This document shows, piece after piece, positions 1-62,067 of a stretch of 64,000 bases of DNA (its first letter is position 1; every line of letters starts with the position of its first letter). The DNA comes from Lucinisca nassula (lineage: Eukaryota; Mollusca; Bivalvia; Lucinida; Lucinidae). The notes beneath the pieces were generated by a model, which did not search any database, was not told where the DNA came from, and was given only the letters and a program-made list of their open reading frames with translations. A program made the translations under genes and the position numbers. The stretch spans positions 13,714,538 through 13,778,537 of the forward strand of contig OY757017.1 of NCBI GenBank assembly GCA_963580285.1, given 5' to 3'.

Positions 1-765
1 GACGGTTTTAGAGTATAAGAACTGAATAGGCAACGGGCAAACGGCAACCAGATGCCAATTCGCTAATTCTATAGAATTGGCAAGTGGCAACTGGCAGCCA
101 GCTGCCAATTCGATTTGAGACGATTTTAGAGCATTAGAACTGAATTGGCAAATGGCAACCGGCAGCCAGCTGCCAATTCGCTAATTCTATTGAATTGGGG
201 ACTGGCAACTGGCAGCCAGCTGGTTTAGGAGTACAAAAACTGAATAGGCAACTGGCAAACGGCAATCAGTTGCCAATTCGACAATCCTAGTGAATTGGCA
301 ACTGGCAGCCAGCTGCCAATTCGATTTGAGAGGGTTTAAGAGTATAAAAACTGAATAGGCAACTGGCAAACGGCAACCAGTTGCCAATTCGACAATCCTA
401 GTGAATTGGCAACTGGCAACTGGCAGCCAGCTGCCAATTCAATTTTGGGCGGTTTTAGAGTATAAGAACTGAATAGGCAACTGGAAACCGGCAGCCAGTT
501 GCCAATTCGCTAATTCTATTGAATTGGCAACTGCCAACTGGCAGCCAGCTGCCAATTCGATTTGAGACGGTTTAAGAGTACAAAAACCGAAAAGGCAACT
601 GGCAAACGGCAATCAGTTGCCAATTCGACAATCCTAGTGAATTGGCAACTGGCAACTGGCAGCCAGCTGCCAATTCGATTTGAGAGGGTTTAAGAGTATA
701 AAAACTGAATAGGCAACTGTCAAACGGAAACCAGTTGCCAATTCGACAATCCTAGTGAATTGGCA
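1..765 (-). repeat. 118-bp satellite array, inverted block
   Basis: This block is the reverse complement of the satellite at 776-5175. Its words read GAATTGGCAACTGGCAGCC and AATTCGACAATCCTAGTG. The unit is about 118 bp, made of a ~50-bp and a ~68-bp part, and is itself built on a GCCAGTT-like 7-mer. The left end is cut by the window edge. Open frames inside it only reflect the repeat and are not coding evidence. Confidence 0.95.
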
Positions 766-810
766 CTTAGTGGGTTGCCAATTCACTAGGATTGTCGAAT
801 TGGCAACTGG
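731..810. repeat. Head-to-head junction of the satellite
   Basis: The left arm at 731-765 and the right arm at 776-810 are exact inverted copies (CCAGTTGCCAATTCGACAAT against its complement), separated by a 10-base spacer CTTAGTGGGT. Array orientation flips here. Such a junction can arise by foldback replication or by fusion of broken sister strands. An assembly artefact is also possible. Confidence 0.9.
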
Positions 811-3800
811 TTGCCGTTTGCCAGTTGCCTATTCAGTTTTCATACTTTTAAACCCTCTCAAATCGAATTGGCAGCTGGCTGCCGGATGCCAGTTGCCAAT
901 TCAATAGAATTAGTGAATTAGCATCTAGTTGCCGTTTGCCAGTTGCCTATTCATTTCTTATACTCTAAAACCGTCTCAAATCGAATTGGCAGCTGGCTGT
1001 CAGTTACCAGTTGCCAATTCACTAGGATTGTCGAATTGGCAACTGTTTGCCGTTTGCCAGTTGTCTATTCAGTTTTTATACTTTTAAACCCTCTCAAATC
1101 GAATTGGCAGCTGGCTGCCGGTTGCCAGTTGCCAATTGAATAGAATTAGCGAATTGGCATCTGGTTGCCGTTTGCCAGTTGCCTATTCAGTTCGTATACT
1201 CTTAGCCGTCTCAAATCGAATTGGCAGCTGACTGCCAGTTGCCAGTTGCCAATTCACTAGGATTGTCGAATTGGCAACTGGTTGCCGTTTGCCAGTTGCC
1301 TATTCAGTTGTTGTACTCTTAAACTGTCTCAAATCGAATTGGCAGCTGGCTGCCTGTTGCCAGTTGCCAATTGAATAGAATTAGCGAATTGGCAGCTGGC
1401 TGCCGGTTGCCAGTTGCCTATTCATTTCTTATACTCAAAAACCGTCTAAAATCGAATTGGCAGCTGGCTTCCAGTTGCCAGTTGCCAATTCAATAGAATT
1501 AGCGAATTGGCATCTGGTTGCCGTTTGCCAGTTGCCTATTCAGTTCGTATACTCTAAAACCGTCTCAAATCGAATTGGCAGCTGGCTGCCGGTTGCCAGT
1601 TGCCTATTCAGTTCTTGTGCTCTAAAATCGTCTAAAATCGAATTGGCAGCTGGCTGCCGGATGCCAGTTGCCAATTCAATAGAAATAGCGAATTGGCAGC
1701 TGGCTGCCGTTTGCCAGTTGCCTATTCATTTCTTATACTCTAAAACCGTCTCAAATCGAATTGGCAGCTGGCTGCCAGTTGCCAGTTGCCAATTCACTAG
1801 GATTGTCGAATTGGCAACTGGTTGCCGTTTGCCAGTTGCCTATTCAGTTGTTGTACTTTTAAACTGTCACAAATCGAATTGGCAGCTGGCTGCCAGTTGC
1901 CAGTTGCCAATTCAATAGAATTAGCGAATTAACAGCTGGCTGCCGGTTGACAGTTGCCTATTCAGTTCTTATGCTCTAAAATCGTCTCAAATCGAATTGG
2001 CAGCTGGCTGCCAGTTGCCAGTTGCCAATTCAATAGAATTATCGAATTGGCAGCTGGCTGTCGGTTGCCAGTTGCCAATTCAACAGAATTAGCGAATTGG
2101 CAGCTGGCTGCCGTTTGCCAGTTGCCTATTCATTTCTTATACTCTAAAACCGTCTCAAATCGAATTGGCAGCTGGCTGCCAGTTGACAGTTGCCTATTCA
2201 CTAGGATTGTCGAATTGGCAACTGGTTGCCGTTTGCCAGTTGCCTATTCAGTTTTTATACTCTTAAACCCTTTCAAATCGAATTGGCAGCTGGCCGCCAG
2301 TTGCCAGTTGCCAATTCAATAGAATTAGCGAATTGGCATCTGGTTGCCGTTTGCCAGTTGCCTATTCAGTTCGTATACTCTAAAACCGTCTCAAATCGAA
2401 TTGGCAGCTGGCTGCCAGTTGCCAGTTGCCAATTCACTAGGATTGTCGAATTGGCAATTGGTTGCCGTTTGCCAGTTGCCTATTCAGTTGTTGTACTCTT
2501 AAACTGTCTCAAATCGAATTGGCAGCTGGCTGCCAGTTGCCAGTTGCCAATTCACTAGGATTGTCGAATTGGCAACTGGTTGCCGTTTGCCAGTTGCCTA
2601 TTCAGTTGTTATACTCTTAAACTGTCTCAAATCGAATTGGCAGCTGGCTACCAGTTGCCAGTTGCCAATTCAATAGAATTAGCGAATTGGCAGTTGGCTG
2701 CCGGTTGCCAGTTGCCTATTCAGTTCTTATGCTCTAAAATCGTCTCAAATCGAATTGGCAGCTGGCTGCAAGTTGCCAGTTGCCAATTCAATAGAATTAG
2801 CGAATTGGCAGCTGGCTGCCGGTTGCCAGTTGCCAATTCAGTAGAATTAGCGAATTGGCATCTGGCTGCCGTTTGCCAGTTGCCTATTCATTTCTTATAC
2901 TCTAAAACCGTCTCAAATCGAATTGGCAGCTGGCTGCCAGTTGCCAGTTGCCAATTCACTATGATTGTCGAATTGGCAACTGGTTGCCGTTTTCCAGTTG
3001 CCTATTCAGTTTTTATACTCTAAAACCCTCTCAAATCGAATTGGCAGCTGGCTGTCAGTAGCCAGTTCAATTGAATTAGCGAATTGGCTGCTGGCTGCCG
3101 GTTGCCAGTTGCCAATTAAATAGACTTAGCGAATTGGCATGTGGTTGCGGTTTGACAGTTGCCTATTCATTTCTTATACTCTTAAACCGTCTCAAATCGA
3201 ATTTGCAGCTGGCTGCCATTTGCCAGTTGCCAATTCACTAGGATTGTCGAATTGGCAACTGGTTGCCGTTTGCCAGTTGCCTACAGTGTATTTAGTTTTT
3301 ATACTTTTAAACCCTCTCCAATCGAATTGGCAGCTGGCTGCCTGTTGCCAGTTGCCAATTCAATAGAATTAGCGAATTGGCATCTAGTTGCCGTTTGCCA
3401 GTTGCCTATTCATTTCTTATACTCTAAAACCGTCTCGAATCGAATTGGCAGCTGGCTGCCAGTTGCCAGTTGCCAATTCACTAAGATTGTCGTATTGGCA
3501 ACTGGTTGCCGTTTGCCAGTTTCCTATTCAGTTTTTACACTTTTAAACCCTTTCAAATCGAATTGGCAGCTGGCCGCCAGTTGCCAGTTGCCAATTCAAT
3601 AGAATTAGCGAATTGGCATCTGGTTGCCGGTTGCCTGTTGCCTATTCAGTTCGTATACTCTAAAACCGTCTCAAATCGAATTGGCAGCTGGCTGCCAGTT
3701 GCCAATTCACTAGGATTGTCGAATTTTCAACTGGTTGCCGTTTGCCAGTTGCCTATTCAGTTGTTGTACTCTTAAACTGTCTCAAATCGAATTGGCAGCT

Positions 3801-5175
3801 GGCTGCCAGTTGCCAGTTGCCAATTCAATAGAATTAGCGAATTGGCATCTGGTTGCCGTTTGCCAGTTGCCTATTCAGTTCGTATACTCTAAAACCGTCT
3901 CAAATCGAATTGGCAGCTGGCTGTCAGTTGCCAGTTGCCAATTCTCTAGGATTGTCGAATTGGCATCTGGTTGCCGTTTGCCAGTTGCCTATTCAGTTTT
4001 TATACTTTTAAACCCTCTCAAATCGAATTGGCAGCTGGCCGCCAGTTGCCAGTTGCCAATTCAATAGAATTAGCGAATTGGCATCTGGTTGCCGTTTGCC
4101 AGTTGCCTATTCAGTTCGTTTACTCTAAAACCGTCTCAAATCGAATTGGCAGCTGGCTGCCAGTTGCCAGTTGCCAATTCACTAGGATTGTCGAATTGGC
4201 AACTGGCTGCCGTTTGCCATTTGCCTATTCAGTTGTTGTACTCTTAAACTGTCTCAAATCGAATTGGCAGCCGATTGCCAGTTGCCAGTTGCCAATTGAA
4301 TAGAATTAGCGAATTGGCATCTGGTTGCCGTTTGCCACTTGCCTATTCAGTTCGTATACTCTAAAGCCGTCTCAAATCGAATTGGCAGCTGGCTGCCAGT
4401 TGCCAGTTGCCAATTTAAAAGGATTGTCGAATTGGCAACTGGTTGCCGTTTGCCAGTTGCCTATTCAGTTGTTGTACTCTTAAACTTTCTCAATTCGAAT
4501 TGGCAGCTGACTGCAAGTTGCCAGTTGCCAATTCAATAGAATTAGCGAATTGGCAGCTGGCTGCCGGTTTCCAGTTGCCTATTCAGTTCTTATACTCTAA
4601 AACCGTCTCAAATCGAATTGGCAGCTGGTTGCCAGTTGCCAGTTGCCAATTCACTAGGATTGTCGAATTGGCAACTGGTTGCCGTTTGCCAGTTGCCTAT
4701 TCAGTTGCTGTACTTTTAAACTGTCACAAATCGAATTGGCAGCTGGCTGCCAGTTGCCAGTTGCCAATTCAATAGAATTAGCGAATTGGCAGCTGGCTGC
4801 CGGTTGCCAGTTGCCTATTCAGTTCTTATGCTCTAAAATCGTCTCAAATCGAATTGGCAGCTGGCTGCCAGTTGCCAGTTGCCAATTCAATAGAATTAGC
4901 GAATTGGCAGCTGGCTGTCGGTTGCCAGTTGCCAATTCAATAGAATTAGCGTATTGGCAGCTGGCTGCCGTTTGCCAGTTGCCTTTTCATTTCTTATACT
5001 CTAATACCGTCTCAAATCGAATTGGCAGCTGGCTGCCAGTTGCCAGTTGCCAATTCACAAGGATTGTCGAATTGGCAACTGGTTGCCGTTTGCCAGTTGC
5101 CTATTCAGTTTTTATACTCTTAAAATCTCTCAAATCGAATTGGCAGCTGGCTGCCAGTTGCCAGTTGCCAATTCA
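776..5175 (+). repeat. 118-bp satellite array with 236-bp higher-order unit
   Basis: About 37 units of 118 bp. Two variants recur: one carries CAATAGAATTAGC, the other CACTAGGATTGTC, and each has its own link (TTCGTATACTCTAAAACCG or TTGTTGTACTCTTAAACTG). They often alternate, giving a 236-bp dimer; for example 3735, 3971 and 4443, 4679 are in register. Some places hold an extra ~50-bp half unit (about 2050 and 4900). Leu/Pro/Val/Ala/Asn-rich ORFs of 66-166 codons run through it only because the repeat lacks stops in one frame, so I call no gene. Confidence 0.95.
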
Positions 5176-5277
5176 ATAGAATTAGCGAATTGGCAGCCAC
5201 ACTGTGAAGTTAGATGCCATTTGCCAGTTGCCGATTGAATAGGCAACTGGCAACTGGCAACTGGCAGCCAACTTCAC
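5176..5277. repeat. Foldback end of the satellite array
   Basis: Satellite words flip orientation again at about 5240. GTGAAGTTAGATGCC (5204-5218) pairs with GGCAGCCAACTTCAC (5263-5277). The array is therefore bounded on the right, like its internal junction at 770, by an inverted repeat. Ordinary unique sequence follows directly. Confidence 0.8.
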
Positions 5278-13344: not shown

Positions 13345-14640
13345 TTGTAAGGGGCCTTGATACAGAATAGTTATGTCTGCCCCCTTTTCGGGGAGATATA
13401 TTGTCCCCCCCCCACTCCCGGGCATCTGCCCGTCCGTCTGTCCGTCCGTCCGTCCGTCTATCTGTCATAAAATCGTGTCCACTCTATCGTGTATGTATGT
13501 AGGCAAATCTGGTCCAGTGAATAACTTCCTGATTTTTTGATAGATTTTGAAATTACTTGGCAGAAATGTTAACCACCATGAGACGATGTGTCGCACGCAT
13601 GACCCAGGTCGGTACCTTAAAAATCAACGTCATACTTAGAGGTCAAAGTTCCAAAAGGGACCTTTTTACATATTCGGTTAATTACTTTCTCATTCCTGGA
13701 TGGATTGTGAAATTACTTGGCAGAAATGTTAACCATGATAACACGATGTGTTGCACGCAAGGACCAGGTCGGTTTCTCAAAGGTCAAGGTCATACTTAGA
13801 GGTCAAATGTCAAAAAAGGGTCATTTTTTCGTGTTTGGTCAATAACTTTCTTATTTATTGATGGATTTTAAAATTACTTGGCCGAAATGTTAACCATCAT
13901 AAGACGATGTGTTGCCCGCAAGACCCAGGTCGGTACCTCCAAGGTCAAGGTCATAAACAGAGGTCAAAGTTCAAAAAGTTGTGTGTGGTTTTTTTTTCGT
14001 GTCTGGTCAAAAACTTTTTTATTTCTGGATGGACTTTTTAAAGTAACCTGGCAGAAATGTTCACCTACATTAGACGGTGTGTAGTGTGCAAGACCAAGGT
14101 TCGTACCTCCAATGTCAAGGTCATACTTGGAGGTCAAAGGTAAAAAAAGGCCTTTGTTTTCGAGCACGGTCAATAACTTTCTTATTCTTTGATGAATTAT
14201 GAAATTACTTGGCAGAAATCTTAACCATCATGAGGCGATGTGTTGCGCCCAAGATCATCGGTATTTCAAAGGACGAGGTCACACTTAAAGGTCAAATGTC
14301 AAAAAATAAAAAAAAAATTTTTTTTTTTTTTTTTCGTGTCCGGTCAGTAACTTTCTTATTCCTTGATGGATTTTGAAATTACTTGGCAGAAATGTTATCC
14401 ATGCAAGACACAGGTTGGTACCTCCAAGGTCAGGGTCATATTTAGAGGTCAAAGAAAAAAACTTTTTTTTTTTTTTTTTTTTTTTTTCGTGTACGGTCAA
14501 TAACTTTCTTATTTCTCGATGGACTTTTTAAAGTTATTTTGGAGAAATGTTCACCTTCATTAGATGATGTGTTGCATACAAGACCCAATGCCATGGCCAT
14601 ACTTAAAGGTCAAAAAGGGGGAGACATCTGTGTTTTTGTA
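13345..14640 (-). mobile_element. Tandem-repeat-bearing element (~155-bp units), copy 1
   Basis: Left end has GTCTGCCCCCTTTTCGGGG then a (CCGT)n run. About seven units follow, each with TAACTTTCTTATT, ATTTTGAAATTACTTGGCAG, AAATGTTAACC and AGGTCAAGGTCATACTTAGA. Units differ by small indels and poly-A/T growth. A related, opposite copy is at 50350-50985. The layout (unique end, tandem core, GACGG-rich end) resembles tandem-repeat-bearing MITEs and Helentron-like elements reported in bivalves; class not proven. Confidence 0.8.
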
Positions 14641-18399: not shown

Positions 18400-21300
18400 A
18401 CCCGCCAGATGCTTTTAGCTTTATGAGTGTTACCATATATGGGTATGGCGGCCATTTTGGTCATGTGACCTGGACCTAAAACGGTTCCCCCAGTAAATGC
18501 GCCTTATCGTAAATATATCTTATACTTTAGTACTGTATTCTGAATCTTCTGCAGGATAAAAAGCATTCTCACTTTTCCAATACAAAAGCATATGTGTCAA
18601 AGTTTGACCTAGGCACAAAGAAGGTCAAGGTCAACCCAGGGTCACCATTTTAGCAATTTATGATGGGCCTACGTCCCAGATGCTATTGATCAAGTTTCGT
18701 GGAAATCTGCCCAGTGGTTCTGGAGAAGACTATTTTTGAAGGGTTTTTACCATATATGGCTTGGCGGCCATTTTGGTCATGTGACCTGGACCCCATGAGC
18801 AAATTTTGGTTTCCACCGTCCCATAGAGGCTCCATATGAAATTTGACTTAAATCGGCCCAACGGTTTCCGAGGAGAAGCGGTTCGAAAATTTTTACATTT
18901 TCGTCTCGGCGAAGTTATACTAAATGGAATGTAATATTTCGCAAGTTCATTTGTAAGATCTCATTGGTATCTATCAGTATGCCAAAAATTGTTTAAATAT
19001 TCCAAGCGGTTAAGTCACTATCACCAATTTTCACAAACGGGTTACGGACGGACAGACAGACCATATATGGCTTGGCGGCTATTTTGGTCATGTGACCTGG
19101 ACCCCATGAGCAAATTTTGGTTTCCCCCGGCCCATAGAGGCTTCATATGAAATTTGATTTCAATCGACCCAACGGTTTCCAAGGAGAAGCAGTTCGAAAA
19201 TATTCACATTTTTCGCCTCGGCGAGGCTATACTAAATGGAATGTAATATTTCGCAAGTTCATTGGTAAGATCTCATTGATATCAATCAGTATGCCAAAAT
19301 GTTTAAATATTCCAAGCGGTTAAGTCACTATCACCAATTTTCACAAACGGGTTACGGGCGGACCCAAAGAAGGTCAAGGTCAACCCAGGGTGACCATTTT
19401 AGCAATTTATGATGGGCCTACGTCCCAGATGCTATTTATCAAGTTTCTTGGAAATCTGCCCAGTGGTTCTGGAATAGACTATTTATGAAGGGTTTTTACC
19501 ATATATGGCTTGGCGGCCATTTTGGTCATGTGACCTGGACCCCATGACCAAATTTTGGTTTCCCTATCGCATAGAGGCTCCATATGAAATTTGACTTAAA
19601 TCGGCCCAATGGTTTCCGAGGAGAAGCAGTTCAACAATTTTCACATTTTTTGCCTCGGTGAGGCAATACTAAATGGAATGTAATATTTCGCAAACTCATT
19701 GGTTAGATCTCATTGATATCTATCAGTATGCCAAAAAATGTTTAAATATTCCAAGCGGTTAAGCCACTATCACTAGTTTTCACAAACGGGTTACGGACGG
19801 ACAGACAGACAGACCATATATGGCTTGGCGGCCATTTTGGTCATGTGACCTGGACCCCATGAGCAAATTTTGGTTTCCCCAATCCCATAGAGGCTCCATA
19901 TGAAATTTGACTTCAATCGGCCCAACGGTTTCCGAGGAGAAGCAGTTCAAAAATTTTCATATTTTTTGCCTCGGCGAGGTTATACTAAATGGAATGTAAT
20001 ATTTCTCAGGTTCATTGGTAAGATCTCATTGATATCTATCAGTATGCCAAAAACAGTTTAAATAATCTAAGCGGTTAAGTCACTATCACCATTTTTCACA
20101 AACGGGTTACGGACGGACAGACAGACAGACCATATATGGCTTGGCGGCCATTTGGGTCATGTGACCTGGACCCCATGAGCAAATTTTGGTTTCACTCATC
20201 CCATAGAGGCTCCATATGAAATTTGACTTCAATCGGCCCAACGGTTTCCAAGGAGAAGCAGTTCAAAAAATTTCACATTTTTTTGCCTCGGCGAGGCTAT
20301 CCTAAATGGAATGTAATATTTCGCAAGTACATTGGTAAGATCTCATTGATATCTATCAGTATGCCAAAAATTGTTTAAATATTCCAAGCGGTTAAGTCAC
20401 TATCACCAATTTTCACAAACGGGTTATGGACGGACAGACAGACAGACCATATATGGCTTGGCGGCCATTTTGGTCATGTGACCTGGATCCCATGAGCAAA
20501 TTTTGGTTTCCCCCATCCCATAGAGGCTTCATATGAAATTTTATTTCAATCGGCCCAACGGTTTCCAAGGAGAAGCAGTTCGAAAATTTTCACATTTTTC
20601 GCCTCGGCGAGGCTATACTACATGGAATGTAATATTCCGCAAGTTCATTGGTTAGATCTCATTGATATCTATCAGTATGCCAAAATTGTTTAAATATTCC
20701 AAGCGGTTAAGTCACTATCACCAATTTTCACAAACGGGTTACGGACGGACCCAAAGAAGGTCAAGGTCAACCCAGGGTGACCATTTTAGCAATTTATGAT
20801 GGGCCTACGTCCCAGATGCTATTTATCAAGTTTCGTGGAAATCTGCCCAGTGGTTCTGGAGAAGACTATTTATGAAGGGTTTTTACCATATATGGCTTGG
20901 CGGCCATTTTGGTCATGTGACCTGCACCCCATGAGCAAATTTTGGTTTCCACCGTCCCATAGAGGCTCTATATGAAATTTGACTTAAATCGGCCCAACGG
21001 TTTCCGAGGAGAAGCAGTTCAACAATTTTCACATGTTTTGCCTCGGCGAGGCTATACTAAATGGAATGTAATATTTCGCAAGCTCATTGGTTAGATCTCA
21101 TTGATATCTATCAGTATGCCAAAAATTGTTTAAATATTCCAAGCGGTTAAGTCACAATCATCAGTTTTCACAAACGGGTTACGGACGGACAGACAGACAG
21201 ACCATATATGGCTTGGCGGCCATTTTGGTCATGTGACCTGGACCCCATGAGCAAATTTTGGTTTCCCACATCCCATAGAGGCTCCATCTGAAATTTGACT

Positions 21301-21466
21301 TCAATCGGCCCAACGGTTTCCGAGGAGAAGCAGTTCAAAAATTTTCACATTTTTTGCCTCGGCGAGGCTATACTAAATGGAATGTAATATTTCGCAAGCT
21401 CATTGGTTAGATCTCATAGATATCTATCAGTATGCCAAAAACTGTTTAAATATTCCAAGCGGTTAA
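18400..21466. mobile_element. Tandem-repeat-bearing element (316/438-bp units)
   Basis: The word CATATATGGCTTGGCGG recurs at 18751, 19062, 19500, 19815, 20131, 20448, 20887 and 21203. Spacings are 311-317 bp or 438-439 bp. The long unit carries an extra ~122 bp (AGAAGGTCAAGGTCAACCC to GAAGGGTTTTTAC). Each unit has CGGCCCAACGGTTTCC, TATACTAAATGGAATGTAAT and a CGGACGGACAGACAGAC end. No ORF. It continues after a MITE at 21747-21900, finishing in (GACAGAAT)n and a short hairpin ACCGACTTCAGTCGGT (21870-21885). Confidence 0.9.
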
Positions 21467-23833: not shown

Positions 23834-24103
23834 AGTCCGTGTTGTAACACCACTGTGAATCCCACTTTTTATACAGAGAAAACTGGGTTCACAGGGATAA
23901 CATTATTTTTTTTTATTTTTGCTCAAAAACATAAATTGTGGAAGCTCGTTAGAAGTTAGAACCGCCCCATGAGGCGGTTCTTTCGAGCATCCACAATTTT
24001 GTTTGGACTAGAAAAAAGACAAATCCACAAACATCATCGAAAAACGCTAGTTCCAGATATATGGACTTCGCCATTCTACAAAACGGGTTTTATTATCGCA
24101 ATC
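23834..24103. mobile_element. M2 MITE, diverged, abutting an M1
   Basis: CAGGTTAAAAGTCCGTG at the left, CACTTTTTATACAGAGAAAA, a core at about 23935-23995 (AGAACCGCCCCATGAGGCGG), and the right end TTTTATTATCGCAAT that joins an M1 terminus (CATCACGAAAAC) with no spacer. Confidence 0.75.
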
Positions 24104-25434
24104 ATCACGAAAACACGCCTATATCGCAATCTCCCTGATAATATCAGGTCATCTGTCCGTTTGTTTGGTGATGATTGTGTCCTTTATAGGAATATATATT
24201 CTTCTTCTGACTGTCTTATTCTACAAGATGACCTGAATCAACTAGCACAGTGGGAGGCCGATTGGCAGATGAAGTTCAATGTGGCCAAATGTCATTCAAT
24301 GAGGGTGTCGCGACACCCTCCGGACAAACAAATAAAGTTTGACTATAAACTACACCAGCAAATCTTGGAGCAGGTTCGATCCGCCAAATATCTTGGTATC
24401 ACCATCACTGATGATCTTGATTGGGGTCAACACATTTCAGAATAACATCAAAAGCAACTAGGACTTTAGAATTTCTTAGACGAAACTTGGCTTTTGCACC
24501 TGGGCAGACAAAGGATGTTGCATATAAAACATTGGTTCGCGCTCAGCTAGAATATGCATCACCCATTTGGCATCCCTATGTTAAAACTCAGATTCAGCAG
24601 GTGGAGAAGGTGCAGAGGACAGCTGCTCGATGGACCTGCCGACGATGGCGCAATAGAAGCAGCGTCGGTGACATGCTTAACGAGCTAGAATGGCCGTCCC
24701 TAGAGGCCCGTCGTGAGCAGTCCTCTTTAACCTTCTTCTATAAGATACATTCAGGTACAGTGGCCATTAATAAAGATAAATACTTGACCCCTGTGACAGT
24801 TTCAACCCGAACAAGGGCATCAAAAGTAAATAACTCACAGTATCACAGGTACCAGTCCTACAGTGATGCCCTGAAAAAATCCTTCTTCCTTAGGACTATT
24901 CCCCAGTGGAATAGTCTTCCCTCTTCTGTGGTGAATGCTAAGACTGCAGAGGAGTTCAAAGCCCATACAGTGTAAGATTGAGACCCAGAGGTATGCGTTT
25001 TAATATGCCTCTGTTATTCAGATTGTAAATAGTCTTAAGGACTCATCCAGTGACTTCTTTTTTTTTAAGCTAAATTATAAATTTAGCCACCCACCCAACT
25101 GAGGTAATGGCCAAATATGACCGACTCAGTATAAGAAGATAGATAGATAGATATCATCACGAAAATACGCCTATATAATTTGGACCCCCTTGAACTGCAC
25201 TTTTATATAATACAACTGGGGTTTAAGGGTGTATACATTATTTTTCTTATTTTTGCTCCAAAACATAGATTGTGGGTACTCGATAGAACCGCCTCGTCGA
25301 GGCGGTTCTATCGAGTCCCCACAATCCATGTTTTGAGCAGAAATAAGAAAAATATCACAATTTTTCATCTTAAAATTTCTAATATTTGGCCAAAAAATTG
25401 GCAATGTATTTGTATAGGCGTGTTTTCGTAATGA
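24104..25434. mobile_element. M1 MITE interrupted by a LINE
   Basis: The left terminus CATCACGAAAACACGCCTAT stands at 24104. After the LINE, the same terminus is repeated at 25156 and the element continues through CACTTTTATATAATACAAC, the core hairpin 25267-25323 and GTATAGGCGTGTTTTCGTAA to about 25434. The core carries paired changes (GATAGAAC with GTTCTATC). Confidence 0.85.
24125..25152 (+). pseudogene. 5'-truncated CR1/L2/jockey-like LINE, reverse transcriptase C-terminal part
   Basis: Conceptual translation starts inside the reverse transcriptase: VRLFGDDC contains the catalytic DD motif of the palm, then DDLNQLAQWEADWQMKFN and AKCHSMRVSR, the usual thumb-side motifs, and KYLGITITDDLDWGQHI. 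At about 24442 one base is missing, shifting the frame. The second part (to the stop at 24973-24975) has AQLEYASPIWHPY, VEKVQRTAARWTCRRW and FFLRTIPQWNSLPSSVV, typical of the C-terminus of CR1/L2/jockey-type ORF2. Endonuclease and N-terminal RT are absent. The 3' UTR ends in (AGAT)n. A 24-bp target duplication (24101-24124 and 25153-25176, one mismatch) flanks it. Not functional. Confidence 0.93.
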
Positions 25435-29806: not shown

Positions 29807-32466
29807 ACGAAAACATGCCAATACAGTGTAAATTTTACCGCTAAAAAAAAAAAAAAAAAACGAAAATTTTAAAACGAATAAATAACGATATTTTTCTTAT
29901 TTCTGCTCAAAACATGAATCGTGGGACTCGTTAGAACCGCCTCATCGAGGCGGTTCTTACGAGTACCCACAATCTAGTTTACCCCTGTAAACCCCAGTTT
30001 TACTATACAAGAGGGCCATGATGGCCCTGGATCGCTCACCTGATCCATAGGGTATCAAGTGGGTCCCTGGGAGAGCCACTATTGGCCCTGGGCTATAATA
30101 TGATTAATCTTGGTAGTGGTCTAAAAGATGAAGCTTCATACCAAATATCAAAGAATGGAGACTTCTGGTTTCATACAAGATTTTTAAACGTTTTCCTTAT
30201 ATAAGTCTTTATAAACCTTGGGGTTGCCGGGTCGGACCATTTTTGCCCCATGGCTATAATTTGAACCATCTTGGTAGAACACCACAAGACAAAGCTTCAT
30301 ACCAAATATCAGAGACCTTGGCCTTCTGCTTTCAGACAAGAAGATTTTCAAAGGTTTTCATTGCCTTGACTTCTATTTCCTAGGGCTATGTAAAACCAAA
30401 GGGCCTGCAGGTGGGGGCAATTTTCGCCCTAGGCCTATAATTTGTACAATCTTAATAGAGGTTCACTAGATGAAGCTTCACACCAAATATCAAAGAACTG
30501 GGCCTTGAGGTTTCAGAGAAAAAGATTTTTAAAGATTTTCCCTATATAAGTCTATGTAAAACCAAAGGCCCCTGGGGTGGGGGCATTTTTGGCCCAAGGG
30601 CTATGATTTGAACAATCTTGGTAAAGGTCCACTAGATGAAGCTTCACACCAAATATCAAAGAACTGGGCTTTGTGGTTTCAGAGAAGAAGATTTTTAAAG
30701 ATTTTCCCTATATAAGTCTATGTAAAACCAAAGGCCCTGGGTCGGGGGCATTTTTGGCCCCAAGGCTATAATTTGAACAATATTGGTAAAGGTCCACTAG
30801 ATGAAGCTTCATACCAAATATCAAAGACCTGGGCCTTGTGGTTTCAGAGAAGAAGATTTTTAAAGATTTTCCCTATATAAGCCTATGTAAAACCAAAGGC
30901 CCTCGGAGCAGGGGCATTTTTGGTCCCAGGGCTATAATTTGAACAATCTTGATAGAGGTCTACTAGATGAAGCTTCACACCAAATATCAAAGACCTGGGC
31001 CTTGCAGTTTCAGAGAAGAAGATTTTTAAATATTTTCCTTATATAAGCCTATGTAAAACTAAAGGCCCCCAGGGCTGGGGCATTTTTGGTGCCAGGACTA
31101 TAATTTGAACAATCTTGGAAGAGGCCCACTAGATGAAGCTTCATACCAAATATTAAAGACCTGGGCCTTGTGGTTTCAGAGAAGAAGATTTTTAAAGATT
31201 TTCCCTATATAAGCCTATGTAAAACCAAAGGCCCTCGGAGCAGGGGCATTTTTGGCCCCAGGGCTATAATTTGAACAATCTTGATAGAGCTTCACACCAA
31301 ATATCAAAGACCTGGGCCTTGCAGTTTCAGAGAAGAAGATTTTTAAATATTTTCCCTATATAAGCCTATGTAAAACCAAAGGCCCCCAGGGCTTGGGCAT
31401 TTTTGGCGCCAGGACTATAATTTGAACAATCTTGGAAGAGGTCTACTAGATGAAGCTTCATACCAAATATTAAAGACCTGGGCCTTGTGGTTTCAGAGAA
31501 GAAGATTTTTAAATATTTTTCCTATATAAGCCTATGTAAAACCAAAGGGCCCCGGGGCGGGGGCATTTTTGGCCCTAGGGCTATAATTTGAACAATCTTG
31601 ATAGAGGTCCACTAGATGAAGCTTCACACTAAATATCAAAGACTTGGGCCTTGTGGTAAAAGAGAAGAAGATTTTTAAAGATTTTCCCTATATAAGCCTA
31701 TGTAAAACCAAAGGCCCCCGGGGCGGGGGCAATTTTGGCCCCAGGGCTATAATTTGAACAATATTGGTAAAGGTCCACTAGATGAAGCTTCATACCAAAT
31801 ATCGAAGACCTGGGCCTTGTGGTTTCAGAGAAGAAGATTTTTAAAGATTTTCCCTATATAAACCTATGTAAAACAAAGGCCCTCGGGGCAGGGGCATTTT
31901 TGGCCCCAGGGCTATAATTTGAACAATCTTGATAGAGGTCCACTAGATGAAGCTTCACACCAAATATCAAAGACTTGGGCCTTGCGGTTTCAGAGAAGAA
32001 GATTTTTAAAGATTTTCCCTATATAAGCCTATGTAAAACCTAAGGCCCCCCGGGGCGGGGGCATTTTTGGCCCCAGGGCTTTAATTTGAACAATCTTGGT
32101 AGAGGTCTACTAGATGAAGCTTCATACCAAATATCAAAGACCCGGGCCTTGCGGTTTCAGAGGAGAAGATTTTCAAAGATTTTCAGTAAAAAAAATCTAT
32201 TTTTAGCTCCTGTGACCTAGATGTGCAACAGACCGGAACCATTTGAACAACTTTGAAAGGGGACCACCTAAGGATCATTCCTGTGAAGTTTGGTCAAAAT
32301 CCGATCAGTGGTTTAGGAGGAGATGTTGTTTGAAGAAAAAGTTTACGGACGCACGCACGACGGACAAAATGTGATCCCAAAAGCTCACCTTGTCACTACG
32401 TGACAGGTGAGCTAATAAAAGCTAGGTTCAAGGTAGTCAAAATTATATAGGCGCGTTTTCGTGCTG
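29807..32466. mobile_element. M1 MITE interrupted by a 2.4-kb tandem-repeat element
   Basis: Left part: CACTACGAAAACATGCC, a poly-A stretch, the core hairpin 29921-29974 and AAACCCCAGTTTTACTATAC. Right part resumes at about 32415 with TAAAAGCTAGGTTCAAGG and ends TATAGGCGCGTTTTCGTG. The outer element is a typical 330-bp M1. Confidence 0.85.
30010..32413. mobile_element. Tandem-repeat-bearing element (~165-bp units)
   Basis: Left end GAGGGCCATGATGGCCCTGG (hairpin GGGCCATGATGGCCC), then about 13 units, each with GATGAAGCTTCA, CACCAAATATCAAAGA, CCTGGGCC, AGAGAAGAAGATTTTTAAA and TTCCCTATATAAG. The unit beginning at about 31265 is short. The right end is unique: CTCCTGTGACCTAG, AGTTTGGTCAAAATCCGATC, a TTACGGACGCACGC run and a hairpin CACCTTGTCACTACGTGACA with GGTGAGCTAA. 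Terminal hairpins, a tandem core and absence of ORFs fit a non-autonomous Helentron-like or TR-MITE design. Confidence 0.85.
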
Positions 32467-35896: not shown

Positions 35897-36210
35897 GCCG
35901 GCCTCGGTAGCTAGGTCGGATGCGCGTCGGACTGTTGATCAGGAGAGGACGTGGGTTGGATACCTGCCGGGGTCGGCAACATTCCTTCGTGGAGACATGC
36001 AATCTTTTCTAGGGTCATTCTCCCCCTTCCCCTGATTCAGGAAGGGCAGTTGTCAGTTTCTTGCGAAAGAATGTGTTCTGGTTATCCGCTAACGTATAAG
36101 CCTGCCCGAGAAAAGTGTGGATAGGTAAAATGACCGGCTGAAAAATGACCCAAATAGTGTTGTCTGGGCTGTTCAACTCACATTCAAACAAACAAACAAA
36201 CAGACAAATA
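35897..36210 (+). mobile_element. SINE family A, full copy
   Basis: tRNA-like head GCCGGCCTCGGTAGCTAGG, TTGATCAGGAGAGGACGTGG, then CTGCCGGGGTCGGCAACATT, CTTTTCTAGGGTCATTCTCC, GCCTGCCCGAGAAAAGTGTG, TAGTGTTGTCTGGGCTGTTC and tail (AAAC)n. Two related copies lie at 50072 and 51354. Confidence 0.92.
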
Positions 36211-36489: not shown

Positions 36490-38666
36490 AAAGATCAGGA
36501 ATCGATACAATTAACTTACTCCACCCATCAAAGACACCAAAGGGAAAGAAACACAAACATTAAGCGACCAGACCATAATGGTAACCTAAACAAAGGAAGG
36601 CCATAAGGACAGTTACTTTCCCACAAAATGGCCATACGGCCATCCAAAATAAAAAGACACAAGTGATACACACAGTAAGTAACAAACAGCAATATAAATA
36701 AACCGCCACAGAAGAACCGCCTTGGAACGGTCTGTGGAAAGATTTCCACTGGGGGGCTTAAATCGATTTTACGTGGGCACAATCCCCGCCCTTACTTCCG
36801 TCGCGATTTAGACAAATAATTTGTTCAGTCCGCATGAAGGTCACCTAACTCATCAGTGCAACATCTCCGTGAACACAAATAATCAAAGAACCACAGAGGT
36901 GAGACAACGGTGAGGACTCGACAGCAAGAAACCACTGAAATGCTGGAGCAAAAGACAACCAACAGTTAGACTCCGATGGGCCCGACCAGAGACAGAGCAT
37001 CAGGCACCAACCAACATTACCTTGAATTAGATCTCTCTAATTCTCAATAAGCCTTTACGTTGGAACCGTCATAGAATCTAAGGCCTGACCCACCGGCGTG
37101 CAATTAAAGAGGGAAGCAAAATTGCCAACCGTGATTGGGTTAACTACCATGCATGCAGTCTGTCGTATAACATCCATGTTATTCCCAATCTTTTTATATC
37201 GAAGAATAATTTTACGAAATTGGGCGCTGAAGTTATTGCTGTTATATATTTTTCTGAATTTATATACTAAGTCACCATAAAATTCGGGTTCCGATAGACC
37301 TTGTTGCAGAAGATATTTAAGTCCAATATTGAATTTTGAAATTAAATCAGAATGGCGTCAATAAAATTTTGGAAAGGCTTTGCGTAGTTTATGGTACCGA
37401 TAACCCTGATTTAGAAGTTTAGCCGTTAATAATTTATTACGAGTGTTGAAGTCAGTTACATGACTATAACTCTAGCAAATCGAATTAATTGCGAAATATA
37501 AACGCCATAGGATGGCGCACGAGGAACATCACCATCCAAAAAAGGAAAATTTACAATCTCAAAATCAAGGTTATCGCGTTTATCATAAATTTTGCACGAA
37601 ACAAACCCATCTACAATAGATAGATGTAAATCCAAAAACGGGGCCTCGGTATCAGAAGAATTTGCTTTATTTAACTGAAGTTCTGGGGGTAAATCTGACT
37701 GATCAAGCCATCGAAATAGGTATTATCAATATTTAATAAATCATGTAAATATCTAAAAGTGGAGATAAAAGCTTCAATAATTTCAGATTGGTTATCAATG
37801 GAAAGCGACAACATGAAGTCTCTTTCATAACAATACAAGAACAGATCAGCGACAAGAGGTGCGCAATTCGTACCCATCGGAATACCCACAATTTGTCTAA
37901 ATAACTTATTACCGAATCTAATATAAATATTGTCAAGTAAAAAGGTGACGGCATCACACACTTTCTGACATGACCAAAGTGTATAATTCTTATGCTCTTA
38001 AGAAGTGAAAAATGCATTTCTGACATTACATGCAAGATAGAGAGAATCTTCTCTGTGAAAAGCACATTCAATTAAATCATTAAGCTTTTCTTTTATAAGA
38101 TTATGAGAAATTGCAGTGTAAAGAGTGGAAAAAATCGTAAGTAGACAGACTTGAAGCACGAAAATGTCTGGATTTCAATTTATTTAAAACTTCATTCGAT
38201 TTTTTACAGGCCAAAACAGATTTCTTCCTGATTTTTCAAAGACTTTATCACAATATTTAATCACATGCGTTTTAATAGCAGTAAGACAGGAAGTTAATAA
38301 TTTAGAAAGTTCCGTGGTAGTGCAAGAGCTAGAACTTGCAATAAACCGTGCTTTTTAAGGTCTTTTATGAAGTTTTGGTAACCAGAATAGCGTACGAAGC
38401 TTGTCTTGGCCTTCGGTAAAACACACAGCAAACTTGGTGGCTGAATGACAAATATGTTTATCTACTATAGCTCTCCCTTCAGCTAAAGGCTGAAGTTCAT
38501 AGGCCTTAGTACCACCAAGCTCCTGCTTAAGCGTGTTAACATAGTGGAGCCGTCACACAACGACGACGTTGTTAGCGGCCTTGTCTGCAGTGGCCAAAAC
38601 AAACTTCTTATGAAATTCTTGAATACCTAGTTTAAGATGACGTAAAGACCTAAACGTGTACTTTTT
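36490..38666 (-). pseudogene. Penelope-like element, decayed reverse transcriptase
   Basis: On the reverse strand conceptual translation gives KKFVLATADKAANNVVVV (about 38600), LKQELGGTKAYE, ICHSATKFAVCFTEGQDKL, then FRQIVGIPMGTNCAPLVADL (37900-37840), STFRYLHDLLNI and LLQQGLSEPEFYGDLVYKF. These match the animal Penelope-like RT group. The frame is broken by stops and shifts, and the second-to-last catalytic motif reads YLHD where YLDD is expected (codon at 37743-37745), so it is inactive. The 3' part (36490-36900) has CGATTTTACGTGGGCACAAT and ends at GATCAGGAATCGATAC, a terminus shared by the fragments at 42063, 42908, 45047, 55140 and 59552. 5'-truncated. Confidence 0.88.
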
Positions 38667-43536: not shown

Positions 43537-44127
43537 ACGCATAGAATAGCATTTACATGGTTGCATAGGCAGACAATTTGAAGAGGATAGATTCAGAAAC
43601 ATTGGCAGAGCCAGTCTCCTATGTACTGAAGGTAATATGCAGTCTGTCAAAAAATACTGCTGTGTTATAAAGATATTAGGCTTGAATGTTAACAATGATA
43701 TTACAACCGCTGGCCTACGAAAGAAAAGTTTATAAAAACGACATCGTCTCAGAAATGTGTTATAAAGAAACTTGCTAAATATGCCTGTCAAAGAGAAACT
43801 TCATAGTACGAGTATACGAGTTTATCAGTTTCACATCAGACTGTGTGAAATTAATGTTTGTCACATAATAAATTATTGCAACCTGTATCGATATGAATTA
43901 CGAAGCATTGTTTGATATTTTATTTTATGGTATTCTCAGATACATTGATGTCTGTACCATATGTGTAATGATGCATGGGCTATGAACATGTATTGTTTGT
44001 CCCTAATACATTCTTAAACTTGAACCCCAAGTCTATCCCAGACATCGAATGGAAAGATGGACAAGCACATCTTAACAAACACCAAAATCACAGGCGACAA
44101 GCCGAGTTAGTAGCTCTTTCCCAAACA
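43537..44127. other. Unassigned AT-rich DNA
   Basis: No repeat family or exon recognised. A 77-codon plus frame (43975-44208) runs into the MITE that follows and has no motif. Confidence 0.5.
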
Positions 44128-44311
44128 CAATACGATTACATACCCGTGCCATATGGTGCATTTTTTTCACACTTCCAAAATGGGTACTATTCTGACGAAA
44201 ACCCTTGATATTTTTCTTAGTTATGCTACAAACATAGGTTGTCGGTACTCGCTATAACCGTCTCCTTGAGGCGGTTCTAGCGAGTACCCACAACTTATGT
44301 CTTGGATATTT

Positions 44312-44630
44312 TCCAGTTCTGTGGTGCATTCCTTGTTTCCAAATGATAACCCTTTTATAGAACATATTTGACGTCACTACAGCTGCTGGTGTCTGGGAGT
44401 GTGTGGCGGCGGTAAAACGTCTCCCTGCCCTACATCATAGTGTAGTTTGTATTTTCTTGTCCTTTGGGATCATTGATTCCATTGTAGAATTCTGAAAATT
44501 TTTTAGGGTCACTGATGAGGCCTAATTGGCCGAAACTAGCTAGTCTGGTCCAGAAATCATGTACACTTGATCCAGTTCTGTGGTGCATTCTTTGTTTCCA
44601 AAGGGTAACCCTTTTATAGAATATATTTGG
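44312..44630 (+). mobile_element. Retrozyme- or Penelope-pLTR-like insertion with 60-bp direct repeats
   Basis: The stretch TCCAGTTCTGTGGTGCATTC, TTGTTTCCAAA, TAACCCTTTTATAGAA, ATATTTG occurs at 44312-44371 and again at 44571-44630, offset 259 bp, with a few mismatches. The unit carries a hammerhead ribozyme (44506-44551) just before the second repeat. One full unit plus a partial second is what insertion of a ribozyme-processed multimeric or circular RNA would leave, as known for retrozymes and for the pseudo-LTRs of Penelope-like elements. No ORF. A diverged relative without the ribozyme core is at 48375-48625. Confidence 0.8.
44506..44551 (+). ncRNA. Type I hammerhead ribozyme, complete core
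   Basis: Reading 5' to 3': stem I strand GGGTCA (44506-44511); core CTGATGA (44512-44518); stem II GGCC, loop TAATT, GGCC (44519-44531); core GAAA (44532-44535); a minimal stem III in which the last A of GAAA plus CTA pairs with TAGT across a 2-base GC loop (44535-44544); cleavage base C (44545); stem I partner TGGTCC (44546-44551). Stem I has six pairs, two of them G-U. All invariant core bases are present. Predicted self-cleavage lies between 44545 and 44546. The very short stem III is typical of Penelope/retrozyme hammerheads, which often act as dimers. In vitro activity is not shown here. Confidence 0.9.
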
Positions 44631-44736
44631 GGCATAAATAAGAAAAAAAAAAAAACGTTTACCCCCGTAAACCCCAGTTTTCTATAAAAAAGTGGGGTTT
44701 AGCGGGGTGTTCATATCATGGACTTGTTCATGAAGT

Positions 44737-45045
44737 GGCAACTCAGTTATCTTTTTCTGAACTACATGAATAGGACTCATAGAAGTGCTATAATGAAAAC
44801 GTTAACTTTAAAACATGACAAGCTAACAAATGAAAGCGCAACGAAAGTACTGTTATGCAATGGGGACGGCCAATTATAATTACCGTGGGATAGGGGTGCT
44901 AAACCGTTTTTACAGCACCCCAACCATCACCCTCATCTTCTGCTGCGGTTTATACTATTGTGTTGGCTATTCAACTCGCATGGAGGCCTCCTAGCCCAGC
45001 ACTGTATTATCACGGTCAACACTTAAAATCGAAATAGAAGTGAAG
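44737..45045. other. Unassigned
   Basis: No family recognised except a Penelope-like trace (CATGGAGGCCTCCTAG at about 44980) that also appears inside the next element. Confidence 0.45.
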
Positions 45046-48374: not shown

Positions 48375-48625
48375 TTCTGTTGTCCAACATTATTACGTCT
48401 CCCCATACATCATCATAGTGGAAATTATATTTTCTGGTCCTTTGTGATCATTGAGTTCATTTAGAATATTTTGGAAATAGAATTCAGCTTAAGTCGGTGC
48501 TATAGGGCGTGGCCGGTGTTGCATATTTCAGTACTGTTCCTGAACAGACTCAATAAACTCAATAAAACCGATTCTGCTATTTTGTTTATTTTGTGTATTC
48601 TTTGCTTCCAAAAGACCCAACCATT
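48375..48625 (+). mobile_element. Diverged relative of the ribozyme-bearing element
   Basis: TACATCATCATAGTGG, TATATTTTCTGGTCCTTTGT and GATCATTGAGTTCATTTAGA match 44427-44500, and TGTGTATTCTTTGCTTCCAA matches the direct repeat at 44586. Between them GACTCAATAAACTCAATAAA replaces the hammerhead. No CTGATGA/GAAA core remains. Confidence 0.65.
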
Positions 48626-49603: not shown

Positions 49604-50008
49604 GTGTTTGCTCCTTTGTTTTGAGCAGTGTATATTTGAAAGACCTGCCTGCCTCCCCTGCATGTGTCCTGTAATGTCAAATTGTATTTGGCAGGTGTGC
49701 TGTTCCCTTAGTATAAAACCCCTTCTAAATCAAGGGAACGTGTTTGCTCCTTTGTTTTGAGCAGTGTATATTTGAAAGACCTGCCTGTCTCCCCTGCATG
49801 TGTCCTGTAATGTCAAATTGTATTTGGCAGGTGTGCTGTTCCCATAGTATAAAACCCCTTCTGAATCAAGGGAACGTGTTTGCTCCTTTATTTTGAGCAG
49901 TGTATATTTGAAAGACCTGTCTGCGTCCCCTGCAGGTGTCCTGTAATGTCAGACTGTATTTAGCAGGTGTGCTGTTCCCTTAGTATAAAACCTTCTGAAT
50001 CAAGGAAA
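49604..50008 (+). repeat. ~134-bp tandem repeat, three units
   Basis: Units begin at about 49605, 49739 and 49873 with GTGTTTGCTCCTTTGTTTTG. Each has TATATTTGAAAGACCTGCCT, CCCCTGCATGTGTCCTGTAA, TTTGGCAGGTGTGCTGTTCC and TAGTATAAAACCCCTTCT. Units are over 90% alike by eye. No ORF. Confidence 0.9.
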
Positions 50009-50349: not shown

Positions 50350-50985
50350 ACTAGAAATGCGTCCATAGGACACGGATGTCCCCGCCTGAAAATATGTCTA
50401 TGTTCGTATTAATCCATAGAAGGTTATTGACGGTGTTAAAGTTTTTTACCCTTTTTTCACATTTGACCTCTAAGTATGACCTTGACCTAAGAGGTAAGGA
50501 CCTTGGTTGTGGGTGCGGCAGATTGATAGCCAACATTTCTGCCAAGTAATTTCAAAATCCATCCAGAAATAAGAAAGTTATTGACTGCGTTTAAGTTTCA
50601 GACCCTTTTTTAATTTTGACTTCTAAGTATCACATTGCCATTGGAGGTACCGGCCTGGCTTTTGCACGTGACACATCGTCTCATAATGGTTAGTATTTCT
50701 ACAAAGTAATTTCAAAATCCATCCAGAAATAAGAAATTTATTGACTACGTTTAAGTTTCGGACCTTTTTTTTACATTTGGCCTCTAAGTATGACCTTGAC
50801 CTTGGAGGTACGGACCTGGGTTTTGCATGTGACACATCGTTCAAAATCCATACAGAAATAAGAAAGTTATTGACTGCGTTTAAGTTTCGGATGGACGAAC
50901 GAACGCACGGACGAACGGACGGACGGACACGGGCAACGCTATATGCCCTTACATCATTCTTCGAATGGCGGGGGCATAAAAACAC
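50350..50985 (+). mobile_element. Tandem-repeat-bearing element (~155-bp units), copy 2
   Basis: Begins CTAGAAATGCGTCCATAGGA and CACGGATGTCCCCGCC. Three to four units follow with AAGTAATTTCAAAATCCATC, CAGAAATAAGAAAGTTATTG and TGACCTTGACCT. It ends with a GACGAACGGACGGACGG run, CAACGCTATATGCCC and GGCGGGGGCATAAAAAC. Reverse-complement relative of 13345-14640. Confidence 0.85.
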
Positions 50986-59572: not shown

Positions 59573-62067
59573 TAAACTCCGTTCAGAAAATCTGAATCAT
59601 CGATTTTTTCGTTTCTTCCTTTTAATACCCTTTTTAGCCAATGCATCACTATGGGAAAGTTGTAGACCGCACCCTCCGCCGATTTCTCCAACAAGTCGTG
59701 TGCCTCTGCGACAGCCAGGAAAGGCTGTGATTATTTTTGAGAAAATTGCAAACTCTAAATTTTCGTTCACAGACTAAGACATTCTGACAGGTTCGGCACA
59801 CCCTCACAAACCATGTATAGAAGTGGTTACTGCTTTTGTAAATTACAAGGGCGTCTATATTTTATTTGCACGATCACTTCATGGACAATCATAAGCTGTG
59901 ACACCACATCTGAAATCGGTATAATTCATTTTGACCACTGTTGACAGCACATCGCGCTAGTGGCTGTCCGTTCATAGTGAGCTTCTATCTAAACTCCGTT
60001 CAGAAAATCTGAATCATTGATTTTTTCGTCTCTTCCTTTTAATACACATTTTAGCCCATACATCACTATGAGAAAGTTTTAGACCTCACCCTCCGCCGAT
60101 TTCTCCAGCAAGTCGTATGCCTCTGCGACAATCAGGAATGGCTGTGATTATTTGGAGAAAATTGCAAAACAAAGAAATGAGACCACAGACTAAGTCCATT
60201 TGATGATGATTGTCAGGTAAAATAATAAATATTCAAATACATGTGATGCACTTTATAAATTGATATGCTATTACGACACACCTTACATTCGAATGGCTAG
60301 ATAGAAGCTCACTGGGAACGGAGAGCCACTAGCGCGATGTGCTGTCAACAGTGGTGAAAATGAATTATACCGATATCAGATGTGGTGTCACAGCCAATGA
60401 TTTTCCATGAAGTGATCGTGCAAATAAAATATAGACGCCCTTGTAATTTACAAGAGCAGTAACCACTTCTATATATGGTTTAAAAGGGTGTGTCGAACCT
60501 GTCAGAATGTCTTAGTCTGTGAACGAAAATTTAGATTTTGCAATTTTCTCCAAATAATCACAGCCTTCCCTGGCTGTCGCAGAAGCATACGACTTGTTGG
60601 AGAAATCGGCGGAGTGTGAGGTCTACAACTTTCCCTTAGTGATGTATGGGCTAAAATGAGTATTAAAAGGAAGAAACGAAAAAATCGATGATTCAGATTT
60701 TCTGAACGGAGTTTAGCCATTCGAATGTAAAAGGTTTGTCGTAACTGCATATCTATTTATACCCCCGGCATACGAAGTATGTCAGGGGGTATATAGTTTT
60801 CGTCTTTCCGTCCGTTCGTCCGTTCGTTGGTTCGTTCGTATGTTCGTTCGTTCGGCCGTTCGTCAACCTTTACGTCAAAGTTTTGCGTTAAACCTTTTTG
60901 ATTGCTCATATCTCTGTAACCACATGTTGGATTCTCTTCATATTTGGTACAGGATATCTCTATAGCATTACCTTTCATATGGACTATCTAAGCCCCTGGG
61001 TCAAGCCCCTGGGTGGGTTGTCTGTCTGTCCGTCTGTCTGTCTGTTCATCTACTTTTACGTCAAAGTTTTGTGTTAAACTTTTTTCATTGCTGATATCTC
61101 TGTAACCACATGTTAGATTCTCTTCATGTTTGGTAAAGGATATCTCTATAGCATTACCTTTCATATGGAATATCTAAGCCCCTGGATCAAGCCCCTGGGT
61201 GGGCTGTCTGTCTGTCTGTCTGTCTGTTCATCTAATTTTATGTCAAAGTTTTGTGTTAAACCTTTTTCATTTCTGATATCTCTGTAACCACATGTTAGAT
61301 TCCCTTCATGTTTGGTAAAGGATATCTATATAGCATTACCTTTCATATGGAATATCTAAGCCTCTGGGTCAAGCCCCTGGGTGGGCTGTCTGTCTGTCTG
61401 TTCATCTACTTTTATGTCAAAGTTTTGTGTTAAACCTTTTTCATTGCTGATATCCCTGTAGCCACATGTTGGATTCTCTTCATGTTTGATAAATGATTTC
61501 ATGATGCATGTCCCTTCCCCCACCCACGGTGACCTTGACCTCAAGGTCACGGACTTAGAAATTTTACATTTGGTTAAAGTTTTATGTCAAAGTTTATAGA
61601 TGCCTGTATGTTCTATTTGATGCCCTCACTCCCTTGGTCCATTTAGAAATTTTATATTTGGTTTAGCTTTTACAAGCACATTTATAGATTCTTATAGCTT
61701 CTTGACTTCATTCATATTACATACAAGCTCGAAAGCTATATCATAGGGTGACGCTGGCCGGGGGTATACGTGACCCACTGGTCACTTTCTCTAGTTATTT
61801 ATAAAGTGCATTACATGGATTTGAATATATATTATTTCACCTGACAATCATCATCAACTGGACTTAGACTGTGGTCTCATTTCTTTGTTTTGCGATTTTC
61901 TCCAAATAATCACAGCCTTTCCTGACTGCCGCAAAGGCATACGACTTGCTGGAGAAGTCGGCGGAGAGTCAGGTCTAAAACTTTCCCATGGTGATGTATG
62001 GACTTAAATGAGTATTAAAAGGAAGACACGAAAAAATCGATGATTCAGATTTTCTGAACGGAGTTTA
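59573..62067. mobile_element. Interleaved inverted repeats A-B-A'-B'
   Basis: A (59573-59990) is inverted at A' (60299-60717), about 415 bp. B (59990-60297) is inverted at B' (60716-60760 plus 61796-62067), which an insertion splits. A and B both begin with the same ~185-bp terminal part (TAAACTCCGTTCAGAAAATC), so the complex has four copies of that terminus, two per orientation. No transposase. This looks like two foldback elements whose halves are interlocked. Confidence 0.85.
60761..61795. mobile_element. Tandem-repeat-bearing element (~180-bp units) with 7-bp target duplication
   Basis: Flanked by TATTTAT at 60754-60760 and 61796-61802; the uninterrupted B arm supplies the empty site. 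It begins ACCCCCGGCATACGAAGTAT then a (CCGTTCGT)n run. Three to four units follow with TTTTGTGTTAAACC, CTGATATCTCTGTAACCACA, TTTCATATGGAATATCTAAG and TCAAGCCCCTGGGTGGGCTG. It ends GACGCTGGCCGGGGGTATAC and GACCCACTGGTCACTTTCTC. No ORF. Confidence 0.88.

Follow-up and report, generated by a model that had tools for sequence, protein, structure and literature searches.

A hammerhead ribozyme motif in a short bivalve insertion that resembles biv-TRIM

An insertion within a MITE-like repeat

The window, a 64-kb stretch of DNA from the bivalve Lucinisca nassula, contains a copy of a MITE-like repeat (44127-44731, edges approximate) that is split into a left part (44127-44306) and a right part (44632-44731) by an insertion of 325 bp (44307-44631, forward strand). 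'MITE' was the label given to this repeat by the first-pass annotation, hence the wording 'MITE-like'. Many other copies of the repeat occur in the window and six of them, when aligned, lack the insertion and represent empty sites. The limits of the insertion were set by this six-copy alignment and by searching with the joined flanks (44100-44306 plus 44632-44760), which gave 29 alignments elsewhere in the window. Twelve of these ran across the junction with 20 or more bases on either side, and five of the twelve covered 261 to 290 columns at 76 to 80% identity. The empty copies and junction-crossing alignments bear out the earlier proposal that the element is nested in this repeat, and its small size is likewise supported.

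The insertion carries two terminal direct repeats of 59 bp on the forward strand (44312-44370 and 44571-44629), which lie 259 bp apart and share 55 of their 59 bases. Measured between the outer edges of the two repeats it is 318 bp, or 1.23 units of 259 bp, as expected of the unit plus partial repeat that had been described from the letters. The unit has a GC content of 42%, and the 1.23 units hold one hammerhead. Comparison of the letters with the empty sites gives TTGGA (44302-44306, forward strand), with TTGGG (44627-44631) as its partner, as the best candidate for a target duplication; the assignment is tentative because the sequence is short, has one mismatch and the TTG of the partner also belongs to the right terminal repeat. 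The TATTT at the left end (44307-44311) can be assigned to neither the unit nor the target site.

The window also has other repeats. Tandem arrays are found at 1-5197 (period 118 bp), 19498-21466 (316 bp), 30082-32184 (166 bp), 49604-50005 (136 bp) and 60858-61497 (182 bp). Tandem repeats of approximately 160 bp lie at 13520-14401 and 50535-50847, and may resemble the bivalve BIV160/pearl repeats. A tRNA-Asn (GTT) is predicted at 35899-35977.

The type I hammerhead motif

A type I hammerhead ribozyme motif occupies 44506-44551 on the forward strand. It reads, in order, GGGTCA, CTGATGA, GGCC, TAATT, GGCC, GAAA, CTAGCTAG, T, C and TGGTCC. A type I hammerhead core consists of CUGANGA...GAAA...UH, with three helices in order and stem I open-ended, and this is the arrangement found. 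Stem I (44506-44511/44546-44551) pairs GGGTCA with TGGTCC through six pairs, two of which are G-U, and is followed by the core CTGATGA (44512-44518). Stem II (44519-44522/44528-44531) has four pairs, GGCC with GGCC, closed by the loop TAATT, and leads into the core GAAA (44532-44535). Cleavage is presumably after C44545, as the rules for hammerheads would predict. When the hammerhead was enforced in a fold of 44371-44629, stem I was lengthened by five pairs (UUUUU/AGAAA) beyond a bulged A44505, and the motif with this possible outer extension would span 44500-44556.

The first-pass annotation had called this a complete hammerhead, and letters, coordinates and descriptor scans all agree with it. 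Its account of the order and spacing of the helices holds for stems I and II and for the core, while its stem III, given as 4 bp closed by a loop of two bases, calls for a correction. In stem III, A15.1-U16.1 is followed by two or three further pairs. A form with three pairs and a 4-nt AGCU loop is more plausible than the 4-bp form, since the latter counts in A15.1-U16.1 and is sterically tight. As the stem III region ACTAGCTAGT (44535-44544, forward strand) is a perfect palindrome of 10 nt, by palindrome test and cofolding, two copies of the ribozyme could share a stem III of 10 bp.

The motif is real and beyond chance, as is clear from comparing descriptor scans of the window with those of simulated windows. 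A strict descriptor (intact core, 4-bp stem II, 3-bp stem III and stem I of at least 5 bp) matched the window once; 300 windows of 64 kb simulated with a first-order Markov model gave no match, both strands being scanned in each case. A relaxed descriptor found only 44506-44551 in the window; in simulated windows it gave 10 matches, spread over nine of 60, and in none of the 60 was the core intact. Chance had already been judged a very unlikely origin, and these counts uphold that judgement.

No Rfam model matched the window at its gathering score, which is a curated threshold rather than a defining chemical feature of hammerheads. Below threshold, Hammerhead_3 (RF00008) scored 20.3 of 48.5 bits (E 0.089), with an alignment in which the core and stem II fit and the proposed stem III does not, and RAGATH-1-hammerhead scored 16.2 bits (E 4.7), with an alignment that follows the proposed helices. 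In another Rfam run the two models reached 19.4 bits (E 0.021) and 17.1 bits (E 0.38), respectively, again below threshold. The absence of a covariance-model hit above threshold, which the first-pass annotation had named as refuting the motif, did occur, but two viral hammerhead-like controls were missed at these thresholds as well.

These controls came from an IMG/VR search. A 25-nt stretch of the hammerhead, comprising core, stem II and the loop TAATT, is identical in the viral contigs L001 (8934-8958, reverse strand) and L002 (5578-5602, forward strand). By eye, stem III of the viral motifs is CCCC/GGGG and their stem I has 6 bp. Both motifs apparently follow closely on an open frame, and they too had no Rfam match at the gathering score. 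Since motifs with the same core and a seemingly sturdier stem III were also missed, the Rfam result is weak evidence against a hammerhead. In the collection of bacterial and archaeal genomes the 25-mer was nowhere matched exactly, and a search of the phage collection with a 221-base stretch of L002 gave no similar DNA. The stem II and loop common to the insertion and the two contigs are taken as putative convergence.

The hammerhead is absent from the minimum-energy folds. For a 59-nt segment the minimum was -14.0 kcal/mol against -9.2 kcal/mol for the directly evaluated hammerhead, and for 44371-44629 it was -71.6 kcal/mol against -65.9 kcal/mol with the hammerhead enforced. A 67-nt segment folded no better than its own shuffles (z -0.21). 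A strongly self-paired circle was not supported, as the self-pairing of the 259-nt circle is not unusual (z -1.29; 18 of 200 shuffles equally good). A two-copy hammerhead in which the 10-bp stem III is shared and a single stem I forms evaluated to -31.4 kcal/mol, whereas unconstrained cofolding of two copies preferred a different structure at -37.5 kcal/mol; action of the hammerhead as a dimer is thus possible, on these models.

Resemblance to biv-TRIM and a ribozyme-less relative

biv-TRIM was published as an LTR-type TRIM by Satovic et al. (2019, PMC6934838). Its sequences are deposited as MN219566-MN219582. According to the paper, it has TDRs of 202 to 218 bp around an inner domain of 77 to 80 bp, a GGGGAGA PPT in most copies and an inner segment, TGATCCCAAAGGAC, conserved in all species but one, while a PBS was not unambiguously identifiable by its authors. 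The authors also describe tandem arrays of up to TDR58_I57, for which recombination between elements is proposed, report that no autonomous partner was found, and place biv-TRIM in 11 of the 16 bivalve species tested, for which horizontal transfer is proposed. PMC11126487 names the element once.

The part of the insertion outside the ribozyme resembles biv-TRIM, judging from its letters. The reverse complement of the TDR forward primer is matched at 17 of 20 bases at 44397-44416 (forward strand), the only such place in the window and a match that never arose in 100 shuffles. Adjoining it is the counterpart of the inner domain (44417-44500, forward strand, right edge approximate). Within this are TCTCCCT (44420-44426), which agrees with the complement of the published PPT at six of seven bases, and GTCCTTTGGGATCA (44459-44472), the exact complement of the conserved 14-mer; the published inner segment is therefore present without mismatch on the minus strand of the insertion. 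The markers stand in the order predicted by the paper: inner domain, PPT, TDR start. The reverse (second) primer is absent from this copy, and the hammerhead sits in its place. By our own estimate the TDR equivalent is approximately 170 to 180 bp, as against the published 202 to 218 bp, and the terminal repeats are just 59 bp. The hammerhead copy and biv-TRIM thus appear to have the inner domain and one TDR edge in common, and the other edge, that with the hammerhead, seems different. The inner-domain pattern was also matched three times in viral contigs (L003-L005); these matches were rejected as probably due to chance, their surroundings looking unrelated.

A ribozyme-less relative of the insertion, overlooked by the first-pass annotation, lies approximately 3.9 kb downstream of the hammerhead copy (48395-48612, forward strand) and was recognized from inner-domain, primer and repeat matches. 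Its inner domain (48395-48467) is identical to that of the hammerhead copy at 59 of 74 columns (E 3e-12), and the complement of the PPT is matched at all seven bases (48398-48404). At the expected start of the next TDR it reads, from 48487, GCTTAAGTCGGTGCTA, which agrees at 15 of 16 bases with the other primer in complement. At its far end, 48593-48612 matches the terminal repeat at 18 of 20 bases, a score equalled by none of 2842 tiles (both copies masked, both strands).

The second-primer match is the weaker marker because of a near-equal score elsewhere and an odd orientation. A search allowing up to three mismatches listed 38515-38533 and not 48487, although by local score 48487 is the best in the window (28, against 26 near 38491-38533). 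The orientation at 48487 makes sense only on the assumption that the paper gives the two primers on the same strand, since a reverse primer of the usual kind would run the opposite way.

Two AATAAA motifs lie between the primer match and the terminal-repeat match, where the other copy has its hammerhead. Neither an Rfam family search, which gave a single below-threshold lncRNA match, nor the relaxed descriptor found a ribozyme in 48395-48612. This relative shows that the ribozyme is not carried by every member of the family.

By word counts, the main text of the biv-TRIM paper (PMC6934838) contains no hammerhead, ribozyme or retrozyme, and the animal retrozyme paper (PMC7229834) no mention of biv-TRIM. 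Among the listed matches in the open-licence literature, no paper links biv-TRIM to a hammerhead. The likeness of a hammerhead element to biv-TRIM, missed by the first-pass annotation, is new here.

A proposed retrozyme-like cycle and its alternatives

Animal retrozymes, as characterized by Cervera and de la Pena (2020, PMC7229834), are non-LTR elements of low GC content that carry a type I hammerhead, occur in tandem without LTR, PBS or PPT, and give linear and circular RNAs of approximately 170 to 400 nt. Copying by helpers such as Penelope-like elements is proposed there, and retrozyme circRNAs are documented in the bivalve Mytilus galloprovincialis, whose repeats are usually 350 to 390 bp. 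Further background on hammerheads and retrozymes is found in passages of PMC6155905, PMC7761336 and PMC10886601.

We consider it probable that 44307-44631 is a non-autonomous retroelement of the animal-retrozyme type, with a body related to biv-TRIM, which spread via ribozyme-cut, circularised RNA. Tandem genomic copies of the 259-bp unit would be transcribed, and the hammerhead in each unit would cut after C44545, perhaps as a dimer via the palindromic stem III. The resulting 259-nt monomer would be circularised by a host ligase, the reverse transcriptase of an autonomous retroelement would go round the circle more than once while copying it, and the cDNA, equivalent to about 1.23 turns, would enter the MITE-like repeat with a short target duplication. 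We infer cleavage, circularisation, reverse transcription of the circle and the helper element; the complete motif, the insertion of more than unit length, the empty sites and the biv-TRIM markers are read from the DNA.

Several observations argue for this cycle. The motif is complete and not expected by chance. Both ends of the insertion lie within the repeat, not at the TDR edges given in the paper, and a 1.23-unit insertion with its ends inside the TDR equivalent is what would be left by more than one copying turn round a 259-nt circle. A unit of 259 bp with 42% GC agrees with published animal retrozymes (RNAs of approximately 170 to 400 nt, low GC) and lies within the limits applied here for that class (approximately 150 to 450 bp, GC below 50%), and circular retrozyme RNAs are on record for a bivalve. 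The biv-TRIM markers are in order, and biv-TRIM itself forms arrays, has no clear PBS and has no helper found. Against it count the single hammerhead copy in the window and the relative without a ribozyme, the minimum-energy folds that omit the hammerhead, the unremarkable self-pairing of the circle, Rfam scores that stay below threshold, the unexplained TATTT and the mismatch in the candidate target duplication.

A wider suggestion, which we regard as doubtful, is that biv-TRIM as a whole is, or at least contains, a lineage of hammerhead retrozymes that has been read on the opposite strand. On this view, TDR and inner domain together would make up the circular unit, and the copying of RNA circles would give rise to the arrays and partial repeats. 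If true, this would link bivalve TRIMs, whose mobilisation is unexplained, to ribozyme-bearing retrozymes, which exist as circular RNAs. biv-TRIM would then have a mechanism that can be tested and that accounts for both the tandem arrays and the missing PBS, and the two copies in the window would be a case of relatives with and without a ribozyme within 4 kb of each other.

Alternatively, the insertion may be a copy of an LTR-type TRIM (biv-TRIM) with a hammerhead acquired in its TDR, moved by an LTR-retrotransposon helper in the manner of plant LTR retrozymes. biv-TRIM was indeed published with TDRs and a PPT, the candidate target duplication is of LTR-like length (4 to 5 bp), and plant retrozymes unite a TRIM-like structure, 4-bp target duplications and hammerheads. 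However, this origin is unlikely, as the ends of the insertion do not fall at TDR edges, the biv-TRIM authors could not identify a PBS unambiguously, and on the hammerhead strand the PPT is present in complement and on the wrong side of the inner domain.

It is quite improbable that the insertion is a fragment of an autonomous Penelope-like element, with the 59-bp repeats and hammerhead as remains of pseudo-LTRs and the likeness to biv-TRIM secondary. The tandem pseudo-LTRs of such elements carry minimal type I hammerheads with a weak or missing stem III, and the weak, palindromic stem III found here fits this. A Penelope-like element is marked by a reverse transcriptase with GIY-YIG. However, the insertion has definite limits on either side, and its 325 bp leave no room for the coding sequence of a reverse transcriptase; the biv-TRIM markers would also be left unexplained. 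Of the 18 open reading frames listed for the window (only those of at least 120 aa), the 10 scanned for domains yielded a single weak hit to a reverse transcriptase (RVT_1, E 4.3e-06, 27 bits against a cut-off of 29.6), which is far off at 23960-24445 and not typed as Penelope.

That the motif is a functionless chance or decayed look-alike in an old repeat, to which sub-threshold covariance scores, competing folds and a single copy in the window might point, is highly improbable given the absence of strict matches and of intact cores from the simulated windows and a core that has stayed perfect beside flanking repeats with four differences in 59 bases.

The retroelement of animal-retrozyme type that we favour can be set beside four known systems. 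With biv-TRIM it has in common the exact inner 14-mer, the primer and PPT matches and a tendency to tandem arrangement; TDR plus inner domain, however, measure 279 to 298 bp there and the unit 259 bp here. Plant LTR retrozymes (Cervera 2016, PMC4918200) likewise place a hammerhead in a TRIM-like non-autonomous element, but the hammerhead is of type III, whereas the element described here is much smaller and has type I. The first-pass annotation's comparison with the type I hammerheads of retrozymes and Penelope-like elements, in which stem III is weak, is supported. Penelope-like and Terminon hammerheads are of type I with a very weak stem III and possible dimer action, although the insertion is too short for Penelope coding sequence and still has a short stem III. 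Hammerheads acting as dimers were reportedly the subject of work by Lunse in 2017. Animal retrozymes, likened here by description, differ in the length of the mussel units (350 to 390 bp, as against 259 bp) and in target duplications, said to be larger than 4 bp when present, compared with at most 4 to 5 bp here. With them the insertion shares a type I hammerhead, a unit of a few hundred base pairs, low GC content, a length of more than one unit and a bivalve example.
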